DNA of 64,000 bases from Natrarchaeobaculum aegyptiacum (lineage in GTDB: Archaea > Halobacteriota > Halobacteria > Halobacteriales > Natrialbaceae). A program made the position numbers and the translations under genes. The DNA lies in contig NZ_CP019893.1 of assembly GCF_002156705.1 (NCBI RefSeq), forward strand, positions 3,596,001 to 3,660,000, given 5' to 3'. Shown here piece by piece: positions 47,247-50,415 of this stretch (the stretch's first letter is position 1; each line of letters begins with the position of its first letter). A model generated the notes under the pieces. That model made no database searches. It was not told the DNA's origin and worked only from the letters and a program-made list of their open reading frames with translations.

Positions 47247-48425
47247 ATGAAGCTGGCGATGATCGGATTTGGACAGGCCGGTGGGAAGATCGTCGATCGA
47301 TTCCTCGATTACGACGATCGAACGAACAGCGGAATCGTCCGCGCGGCAATCGCGGTCAACTCCGCGAAAGCAGACCTCATGGGTCTCGATCGCATCCCAC
47401 AGGAGAATCGCGTACTCATCGGCCAGGCCCGGGTAAAGGGCCATGGCGTGGGTGCAGACAACGAACTCGGCGCGGAAATCGCCGAAGAGGACATCGACGA
47501 GGTACAGAACGCGATCGATCAGATCCCGACCCACGAGGTCGACGCGTTCCTGATCGTCGCCGGTATGGGTGGCGGCACCGGTTCCGGTGGCGCACCCGTC
47601 CTCGCAAAACACCTCAAACGGATCTACACGATCCCCGTCTACGGGCTGGGCGTCCTGCCCGGAACGGACGAGGGTGGCATCTACACCCTCAACGCGGCCC
47701 GCTCGTTCCAGACGTTCGTCCGTGAGGTCGACAACCTGCTCGTCTTCGACAACGACTCCTGGCGACAGACCGGCGAGTCCGTCGAGGGCGGCTACGACCA
47801 GATCAACGAAGAGATCGTCCGACGCTTCGGGATTCTCTTCGGTGCCGGTGAGGTAAGCGGTAATCAGGACGTCGCAGAGAGCGTCGTCGACTCCTCGGAG
47901 ATCATCAACACGCTCTCGGGCGGCGGCGTCTCGACCGTCGGCTTCGCGAGCGAGGGCGTCGAACTCAACAGCGGCGGCGGCCTCCTCTCCCGCTTCACGG
48001 GCGACGACAGTGGCGGCGACGGTCTCGACGCTGCGAACACGACCAACCGCATCACGAGCCTCGTCCGCAAGGCCGCCCTCGGCCGGCTCACGCTCCCCTG
48101 TGAGATCGAGGGAACCGAACGCGCGTTGCTCGTAGTCGCCGGCCCCTCGGAGTACCTCAACCGGAAGGGCATCGAACGCGGCCGCAAGTGGCTCGAAGAG
48201 GAGACCGGCAGCATGGAAGTCCGCGGCGGCGACTACCCGCGACAGGAACCGGAAGTCGCCGCGACAATCCTGCTCTCGGGCGTTACCAACGTCCCGCGCA
48301 TCAAGCGTCTCCAGCAGGTCGCCATCGAGGCACAGGACAACATGGAGGACATCAAAGCCGAGAGCGAGGAGAACCTCGAGTCGCTGGTCGACGACGGCGA
48401 AGACGAACTCGAGCCGCTGTTCTAG
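47247..48425 (+). CDS. cetZ1: CetZ-family tubulin (CetZ1-like)
   Basis: 392 residues. Tubulin/FtsZ GTPase fold: IGFGQAGGKIVDRF (start), AVNSAKADL, GHGVGADNELGAEIAEEDID, and the T4 loop GGGTGSGGAPVLAKHL. T7-region and C-terminal residues follow. The sequence matches Haloferax CetZ1 very closely in remembered stretches (GIYTLNAARSFQTFVREVDNLLVFDND). CetZ1 controls cell shape and motility in Haloferax, not division. The C-terminal tail is acidic (EDELEPLF). It stops with TAG. Its 214-base upstream region is AT-rich. Confidence 0.95.
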   Translation: MKLAMIGFGQAGGKIVDRFLDYDDRTNSGIVRAAIAVNSAKADLMGLDRIPQENRVLIGQARVKGHGVGADNELGAEIAEEDIDEVQNAIDQIPTHEVDAFLIVAGMGGGTGSGGAPVLAKHLKRIYTIPVYGLGVLPGTDEGGIYTLNAARSFQTFVREVDNLLVFDNDSWRQTGESVEGGYDQINEEIVRRFGILFGAGEVSGNQDVAESVVDSSEIINTLSGGGVSTVGFASEGVELNSGGGLLSRFTGDDSGGDGLDAANTTNRITSLVRKAALGRLTLPCEIEGTERALLVVAGPSEYLNRKGIERGRKWLEEETGSMEVRGGDYPRQEPEVAATILLSGVTNVPRIKRLQQVAIEAQDNMEDIKAESEENLESLVDDGEDELEPLF

Positions 48426-48575: not shown

Positions 48576-49301
48576 ATGGAGGTTCTCGTCCCGTTCGCCG
48601 CCGAGAGGCCGAAAACCCGCCTCGAGCCGGTGCTCTCGGCCGAGGAACGAGCGGCGTTCGCGCGGGTGATGCTCGCCGACGTCCTCGAAACCGTCACCGA
48701 GACTGGACACGACCCGGTGGTGCTCTCGACGGCACCGCTCGAGGATCGAGCGGTCGAGTCGGAGAGGCTGTCGCGAGAACCGGAGGTCGATCCGCGCGGA
48801 ACCATCGAGGGCATCGACCCGCAAATCGTGATCGACGATCGATCGCTCTCGGCGGCCGTCGGCGGCCGTCTTCCCGGACCGGGTGACGATCCCGTCGCCG
48901 TGGTGATGGCCGATCTCGCGCTGGTGACACCTGTGTCACTCGAGACACTGTTCGAACCGCTCGTGGGTGACGGACCTCGAGGCGAGTCCGTCCCGGACGT
49001 CGTCATCGCGCCGGGCCGTGGCGGCGGGACGAACGCACTCGTCGTCGACCACCCCCAGTTTTCGGTCGACTATCACGGCGCGTCCTACCGTGACCACGTT
49101 CGGATCGCCCGCGAAGCCGGCGCGACTGTCGAATCCGTCGACTCCTACCGGCTGGGGACGGACGTCGACGAGCCAGCGGACCTGGTCGAAGTGGTACTCC
49201 ACGGCGAGGGGCAAGCCGCTGCCTTTCTGGATGCACTCGGCTTCGACCTCGAAACGGGCAGTGGCCGGGTTACCGTCGCTCGAGACAGTGGTCCGATTTA
49301 G
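48576..49301 (+). CDS. cofC: 2-phospho-L-lactate guanylyltransferase
   Basis: 241 residues from ATG 48576. The start VLVPFAAERPKTRLEPVLS is typical of CofC, with VVMADLALVTP and IAPGRGGGTNALVV further on. CofC activates phospholactate (or phosphoenolpyruvate) with GTP for coenzyme F420 biosynthesis. A start at 48468 would add 36 unrelated residues. No other F420 gene is nearby. Only two bases after the stop the transposon-like relic begins. Confidence 0.92.
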   Translation: MEVLVPFAAERPKTRLEPVLSAEERAAFARVMLADVLETVTETGHDPVVLSTAPLEDRAVESERLSREPEVDPRGTIEGIDPQIVIDDRSLSAAVGGRLPGPGDDPVAVVMADLALVTPVSLETLFEPLVGDGPRGESVPDVVIAPGRGGGTNALVVDHPQFSVDYHGASYRDHVRIAREAGATVESVDSYRLGTDVDEPADLVEVVLHGEGQAAAFLDALGFDLETGSGRVTVARDSGPI

Positions 49302-49303
49302 CT

Positions 49304-49374
49304 GAAAGGGAGGGCGCTAAGCCCCCGTCCTCAAGGAACCTGTGGTAGCAGGCGAGTAGGGCGGAGTAGTTCAC
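49304..49374 (+). mobile_element. Orphan IS200/IS605 right-end relic (omega-RNA-like)
   Basis: A 71-base block without a gene contains two hairpins: GGGCGCTAAGCCC (stem GGGC/GCCC) set inside GAGG...CCTC, then CCTGTGGTAGCAGG (stem CCTG/CAGG). It ends in GGCGAGTAGGGCGGAGTAGTTCAC. This is the layout, from memory, of the right ends of haloarchaeal IS1341/IS605 TnpB elements, which encode the guide RNA scaffold and end in TTCAC. No tnpB or tnpA remains. It is squeezed between cofC and dgcA, three bases inside the dgcA stop. Confidence 0.55.
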
Positions 49375-50405
49375 CGAACGCCGGTCCCCGGCCGATCGAG
49401 TCCAGTGAGATCGATCTCGCCGTCAGGCATCGGGACGCCCTCGAACGGATCGTCGGCGAGCAACAGCGCACCGTCGAGATCCGCGTAATCGAGCAACGGC
49501 GAGAGGTGGCAGGCCGCAGCGATCGAGGCGTTCGACTCGAGCATACAGCCGCCCATCACCTCGAGGCCGTGGGCGCGGGCAGCGTGGACGAGACGGATCG
49601 CCTCGCGGATGCCACCGCACTTCATGAGTTTGCAGTTGACGACGTCACAGCGGTCGGCGATCCGGGGGACGTCTGCTGCTGTGAGACAGGATTCGTCGGC
49701 GACGATCGGGAGTGACGAACGCTCGAAGACCTCGCGCATGCCCGTCGGGTTCTCGGCTGGCACGGGCTGTTCGACGAGCGTTACGTCGAAGTCGGCGAGC
49801 CAGTCGATCCGGGTGATCGCGTCGGTCGGCGTCCACGCCTCGTTCGCGTCGACGAACAGCCGGACGTCGGGCGCGACCGACCGAATCGTCTCGATGATCT
49901 CACGGTCGCGGTCGGTTCCGAGTTTGACCTTGAGCGTCCCGAAGCCGCGGTCGACGGCTCGCTCGGTCTTCTCTCGCATCGTCTCGAGGTCGTCGATGGC
50001 GATCGTGTACGACGTCTCGAGGGCCTCGGCTGGATCGAGCCCCAGATAGCGATAGAGCGGTACCCCGAGCTGTCGGGCAACGAGATCGTGACAGGCGATG
50101 CTCACCGCCGTACGGGCCGCGGGGTTGGCCCGAACGGTTTCGCGCATCCGACGCTCGATCCGCTGGAGGTTGTGGCGATCGTCGACCTCCTCCACGGCTG
50201 CGAGAAGATCCGGGAGGACCGCCTCGACGGTCGCCGGCGTCTCCCCGTAGTGGGCCGCTGGTCCTGCCCCGCCGATACCCACGTTCCCGTCGTCGTCTTC
50301 GAGCCTGACGGTCACGACCTCCGCCGTCTTCTGGGTCCCGCGGGCGATCGTAAACTGGTCTTCGAGCGGAAGCGAGCGCCGTTCGAACGAGTGGCTGAGT
50401 GTCAT
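49371..50405 (-). CDS. dgcA: DgcA-type enolase-superfamily racemase
   Basis: 344 residues from ATG 50405. Mandelate racemase/muconate-lactonising fold: capping region 1-130, then the barrel with KVKLG (catalytic Lys pair), FVDANEAWTP (Asp, metal), VEQPVPAENP (Glu), VADESC (Asp, Glu) and KLMKCGG (Lys). The family includes L-Ala-D/L-Glu epimerases, but pairing with the DUF1611 protein 10 bases upstream matches DgcA, the N-acetyl-D-glutamate racemase of D-glutamate use. So it is either that or a dipeptide epimerase; the context decides my call. Its stop overlaps the relic end. Confidence 0.8.
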   Translation of the reverse strand: MTLSHSFERRSLPLEDQFTIARGTQKTAEVVTVRLEDDDGNVGIGGAGPAAHYGETPATVEAVLPDLLAAVEEVDDRHNLQRIERRMRETVRANPAARTAVSIACHDLVARQLGVPLYRYLGLDPAEALETSYTIAIDDLETMREKTERAVDRGFGTLKVKLGTDRDREIIETIRSVAPDVRLFVDANEAWTPTDAITRIDWLADFDVTLVEQPVPAENPTGMREVFERSSLPIVADESCLTAADVPRIADRCDVVNCKLMKCGGIREAIRLVHAARAHGLEVMGGCMLESNASIAAACHLSPLLDYADLDGALLLADDPFEGVPMPDGEIDLTGLDRPGTGVR

Positions 50406-50415
50406 CGTGGTCACC

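Follow-up and report, generated by a model that had tools for sequence, protein, structure and literature searches.

What occupies the 69-base gap between two convergent genes of Natrarchaeobaculum aegyptiacum, in the 64,000-nucleotide stretch of DNA that was analysed (the window), and how did it come to lie there? The preliminary description had read positions 49304-49374 as the orphan right end of a TnpB element from which tnpB has been lost. The 71-base block, its terminal GAGTAGGGCGGAGTAGTTCAC and the 69-base gap, which separates the cofC stop (49299-49301) from the epimerase stop on the minus strand (49371-49373), are all present there. Folding predicts the two hairpins that had been noticed (GGGC/GCCC and CCGTCCT/..GGGCGG, the latter with an inner stem), tnpB is absent from the space between the ends of the block, and the proposed check against IS605/IS1341-type right ends of haloarchaeal TnpB elements revealed a strong similarity of the 3' end. 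The idea of an orphan right end, on the other hand, had to be abandoned: the feature spans 49302-49374 and includes a left end, and its two halves match the left and right ends of such elements. We are confident that the block is a terminal-only palindrome-associated transposable element (PATE), a non-autonomous miniature of a haloarchaeal tnpB-only (IS1341-type) element of the IS200/IS605 family. The features of the locus and of its full-length relative are the following.

48576-49301, plus strand: cofC-like gene (2-phospho-L-lactate guanylyltransferase; TIGR03552 above the cut-off, 146.9 bits; PF01983)
49298-49301, plus strand: TTAG target and left cleavage site, outside the element; TTAG precedes 16 of the 17 terminal-only copies examined for the target
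49302-49374, plus strand: very probably a complete terminal-only PATE of 73 bp, from the own-genome copies, the matches in other genomes and the 30 terminal-only copies of 70-81 bp
49302-49322, plus strand: left-end segment CTGAAAGGGAGGGCGCTAAGC, matching the left ends of full-length tnpB elements
last four bases of 49302-49322, plus strand: AAGC, immediately preceding the palindrome and presumed to be the left guide by analogy to the IS608 scheme (PMC5934647)
49323-49366, plus strand: subterminal palindrome with outer arms, an inner stem CCTG/CAGG and covariation in the alignment
49323-49330 and 49359-49366, plus strand: palindrome outer arms CCCCGTCC and GGGCGGAG, with one C.A mismatch and one G.T wobble
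49354-49374, plus strand: right-end segment GAGTAGGGCGGAGTAGTTCAC with the right cleavage site TCAC, from genome repeats of the terminal 21-mer and the family-genome count
49371-50414, minus strand: enolase-superfamily gene (dipeptide epimerase / MenC-like; MR_MLE_N and MR_MLE_C domains)
genome 2928096-2929289, minus strand (L030 597-1790): tnpB pseudogene of the only full-length relative found in the genome, an element whose ends match those of the window element

The terminal 21-mer occurs four times, with up to three mismatches, in the 3.93-Mb genome (reversed control, 0), and a BLAST search of the own genome located the whole block twice more in the chromosome, at 3471190-3471263 and 3080753-3080825, which show 88% and 83% identity, respectively, to the window block. 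A match to the left end only, at 2929397-2929437, belongs to a 1473-bp element (~2.93 Mb) as its left end; the right end of this element is GAGTAGGCAGGGGTAGTTCAC, and it carries the tnpB pseudogene, with two in-frame stops at residues 21 and 98. No other TnpB of the same type was found in this genome. A family search gave two tnpA matches in the genome, one intact (508191) and one with a single stop (2464171). The former (L034, 508191-508550) is the only intact Y1 transposase gene found; a tnpB-like reading frame is present on the same locus, and the nearby hairpin, CCTCGGGGCTTGACCCCGAGG, is unlike the ends of the window element. A left-end-like TTAG|CTGAATTGAGGCGCTAAGCCC was also seen at genome positions 3253221-3253254 on the minus strand (L033/L009), and no right end of the window type lies within the 701-base stretch L033.

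The block has matches in 48 of the 100 genomes searched, the own genome included, and GAGTAGGNNGGRGTAGTTCAC is held by 71 of 125 family genomes (reversed control, 0). Thirty of 106 sampled right ends, nearly all of which come from Natrialbaceae, belong to terminal-only elements, whose length is uniform (70-81 bp) across many species. The full element measures ~1.42-1.49 kb, and its left and right ends share a palindrome, CCYCNNCCTCAAGGA...GAGTAGGNNGG. In the eight full-length elements compared, one from the own genome and seven from relatives, left ends resembling CTGAAAGAGAGGGCGCTAAGCCCCCGTCCTCAAGGAGCGA...GAGTAGGGCGGGGATACAGCGCCC are combined with right ends resembling GGAAGCCCCTGCCTCAAGGAAGC...GAGTAGGCAGGGGTAGTTCAC. 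Judged by sequence comparison, the 73-bp element is such a left end joined to such a right end through their near-identical palindromes. The left-end match reaches 94% over query positions 1-36 in three genomes (G000, G008, and G035); left-end matches typically span positions 1-36 or 1-63, and right-end matches start at about 18-24 and run to 73, as expected of an end fusion. Three full-length tnpB-only (IS1341-type) elements of ~1.43-1.48 kb (L037, L045, and L059) have the same left and right ends, the same TTAG target and the same TTCAC terminus as the window element, but they carry tnpB and the omega-RNA scaffold region 5' of the right end, neither of which is found in the window element. 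A short element of the window type (L130, 1501-1603) has as its neighbour, at a distance of ~20 bases and on the opposite strand, the right end of a different IS605-type element (CCTCGGGGCTTGTCCCCGAGGTACTTCAC). Two right ends in separate genomes (L176 in G121 and L195 in G119) have downstream flanks that are 95% identical over 500 bp, this insertion site being common to two species.

Terminal-only PATEs were described as a class in Haloquadratum in 2011 (PMC3119063), and the 73-bp element is a further example of this known class. There is no gene inside the 73 bp, so it is not an autonomous IS200/IS605 element, which would code for TnpA and/or TnpB; instead, both ends are directly fused without a transposase gene. 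A near-terminal palindrome is present without terminal inverted repeats (the termini CTGAA/TTCAC pair over only four bases), and the dispersed copies follow a short targeting sequence that is not duplicated, TTAG standing on the left only and not being repeated on the right. The closest counterparts are the ISHwa23 and HqIRS46 terminal-only PATEs of Haloquadratum walsbyi (52 bp each; PMC3119063), in which IS605-type ends are likewise fused, the near-terminal palindromes are the direct repeats between which the core has been lost, the target is not duplicated, and a targeting sequence of 4-5 bp is kept at the 5' side. The window element differs from them in its greater length, its parent element and its TTAG target, and copies of its type have been seen as differences between species only, not between strains. 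With IS608 and ISDra2 it shares subterminal palindromes and insertion 3' of a short target, and the tetranucleotide directly 5' of the palindrome would fit a guide role. This tetranucleotide is AAGC in the window element and GAAG in the full right ends; by analogy, the guide/cleavage pairs AAGC/TTAG and GAAG/TCAC, respectively, would fit the IS608 scheme, in which GL AAAG is paired with CL TTAC and GR GAAT with CR TCAA (PMC5934647). IS608, which uses TTAC/TCAA, and ISDra2, which uses TTGAT, differ from the window element in encoding both TnpA and TnpB and in retaining two palindromes.

The palindrome is real on comparative grounds. In 30 aligned copies, 83% of the cells pair, compared to 40-47% when the arms are slid, the covariation score is 0.210 against at most 0.075 in the slid control, and five of the six inner pairs are altered on both sides. 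The folding energy of the window copy alone is no better than that of shuffled sequence (z = -0.77 as DNA and -0.09 as RNA); as it was not significant, it was dropped as evidence of structure. The 5' arm of the palindrome is of the left-end type and the 3' arm of the right-end type. Fully Watson-Crick stems are found in 6 of 35 terminal-only elements compared to 28 of 57 full right ends, as expected if each end contributed one arm. The C.A mismatch was rejected as a hallmark peculiar to fusion, because a mismatch is also found in at least one full right end (L189), and the argument that the stems provide for fusion is thus one of statistical contrast.

A sister copy (L032) is an insertion with clear empty sites in three relatives. 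Its flanks, joined at TTAG, align unbroken over ~330-405 bp to G002, G003, and G007, the neighbouring FlaJ-like protein stops at one and the same residue in carrier and relatives, and the joined flanks give an in-frame stop. For the window copy, no relative with cofC adjoining the epimerase gene and without the element was found, the examined relatives having other genes downstream of cofC; the reading frames and the ends of orthologues nevertheless point to the probable empty site. The joined flanks read ...GATTTAG|CGAACG..., which gives cofC a terminal TAG and would give the epimerase gene the ending GTT CGC TAA. Before the insertion, the epimerase gene would accordingly have had its TAA within TTAG, overlapping the TAG of cofC, and its orthologues in G002 and G003, of the same genus, end CGG TAA. 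With the element, the cofC stop inside the TTAG target is kept, and the TGA of the epimerase gene is supplied by GTGA, the reverse complement of TCAC, giving the end GTT CGG TGA. The insertion would therefore have left cofC untouched, and in the epimerase gene one Arg codon would have been exchanged for a synonym and the stop for a new one; it appears near-silent, as the forward stop survives in TTAG and TCAC reads GTGA in the register of the lost CTAA. On the reverse strand, the target and the element end thus both provide in-frame stops (CTAA to GTGA). Among 101 sampled right ends, 23 have a reverse-strand gene ending exactly at the element GTGA, and the other convergent coding stops are scattered across the next 150 positions. 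A targeting preference for reverse stop codons was considered and rejected (23/101 versus 5/33 TTAG sites in the window); the distribution of TTAG in a GC-rich genome accounts for these insertions, and we claim no special targeting. Upstream of cofC, at 47247-48425 on the plus strand, lies an FtsZ/tubulin-like gene identified as CetZ (PF21011, 269.8 bits), and a scan of viral contigs with this CetZ-like neighbour found nothing.

The preliminary description had also raised the possibility of a domesticated small RNA acting with a TnpB in trans; as an omega-RNA, the block would have the flank CGAACGCCGG... as its guide. The right-end stem and the 3' GUUCAC motif next to the guide position are indeed kept, the genome has more than ten other TnpB matches, and the motif takes part in the pseudoknot of ISDra2 (PMC10097598). 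Omega-RNAs are expressed in haloarchaea, and the IS1341-associated sotRNAs/omega-RNAs of Halobacterium salinarum have the same right-end hairpin and terminal motif (PMC12558985), but the second hairpin, which pairs with the terminal motif in these RNAs, is missing from the window element. The active scaffold of ISDra2 is 116 nt even in its minimal form, with the terminal motif pairing with bases -105 to -103 (PMC10097598), whereas the window element has only 73 nt and lacks an upstream stem whose loop could pair with the terminal motif. A GUGRA capable of pairing with UUCAC is mostly located at -116/-117 in full elements; 52 of the 57 contain one between -170 and -90, compared to 2 of 35 short copies with a GUGRA, a contrast to which the overlap of this stretch with the tnpB coding end may add, since its conservation is partly protein-driven. 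In addition, the only TnpB found in the genome with ends of this kind is the pseudogene broken by two stops, the copies differ in locus and in flanking sequence, and the suggested covariance search matched no Rfam omega-RNA family with either the block or the full elements. From these sequence features, it is unlikely that the short element makes a working omega-RNA or serves a TnpB in trans, and we regard the specific proposal of a domesticated guide RNA as highly improbable. A convergent-gene terminator or another host RNA element that merely resembles an IS end would agree with the position of the block between two convergent 3' ends and with its folding into hairpins. The same block, however, is found at unrelated sites and in other orientations, nearly always after TTAG, it matches true IS ends flanking tnpB, and the sister locus has empty sites, which together leave this explanation with a negligible probability. 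Nor is the block a conserved part of the cofC mRNA, as none of the cofC 3' flanks examined in 12 relatives carries it.

The terminal-only PATE is thus the reading that we retain, and its short form may have arisen in place or moved as such. Recombination or replication slippage between the palindrome repeats may have removed tnpB and fused the ends, and the element, either long or already short, would have inserted 3' of the TTAG holding the overlapping stops of cofC and the epimerase gene. We lean towards insertion of the long form followed by deletion of the core on the spot. A TnpA (Y1/HUH) transposase supplied in trans would presumably have moved the element by way of its single-stranded DNA ends, this action being established for IS608. 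Core deletion between palindromes has a precedent in Haloquadratum, where the 1500-bp ISHwa23 was shortened to a 52-bp PATE, and the 52-bp product is also a precedent for a short form that may be mobile (PMC3119063). In its inner loop (CCTG....CAGG), the window copy is similar to right ends such as L050 and L058, and the other two own-genome copies share a left-end-like inner loop resembling that of L037, which suggests that the window copy and the other two are separate fusion events. The fossil or passively mobile end that had been proposed was close to the mark, except that the block is not a right end alone. The window copy is most likely inert today, because it is non-coding, lacks most of the omega-RNA scaffold and has one palindrome, compared to the two used in IS608-type transposition.

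A competing account, to which we give less than even but appreciable weight, is that the short form is itself mobile, one palindrome acting as both ends and the 73-bp unit having been inserted as such. The uniform length and the many copies per genome in one relative (G121) are in its favour, as are the same 20-nt inner loop shared by two own-genome copies at unlinked sites and the six strain-specific insertions of Haloquadratum that were seen only as the 52-bp form (PMC3119063). Against it, the TnpA of IS608 binds one palindrome per end (PMC5934647), only a left-type guide is left 5' of the palindrome, and the window copy, whose inner loop is different and right-end-like, is no sibling of the other two copies, which points to a separate fusion. 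The more specific proposal that a 70-80 bp single-palindrome element is mobile in Natrialbaceae, with one guide block (TAAGC) whose C-run can slip serving both ends, is rather unlikely; if true, it would be a single-palindrome mobile element simpler than any characterised IS200/IS605 transposon, which has two palindromes and two guides. The genome G121, with 29 right ends of the window type, several of them in short copies, would be a good system for asking whether one-palindrome elements move.

The assignment eliminates an orphan guide RNA as a false lead and provides a clean, annotated example of haloarchaeal tnpB elements decaying to 73-bp scars. The reverse frame shared by the TTAG and TCAC stops is a small design point that we have not met in the cited papers, and it means that elements of this kind can land on the overlapping stops of convergent genes at almost no cost.
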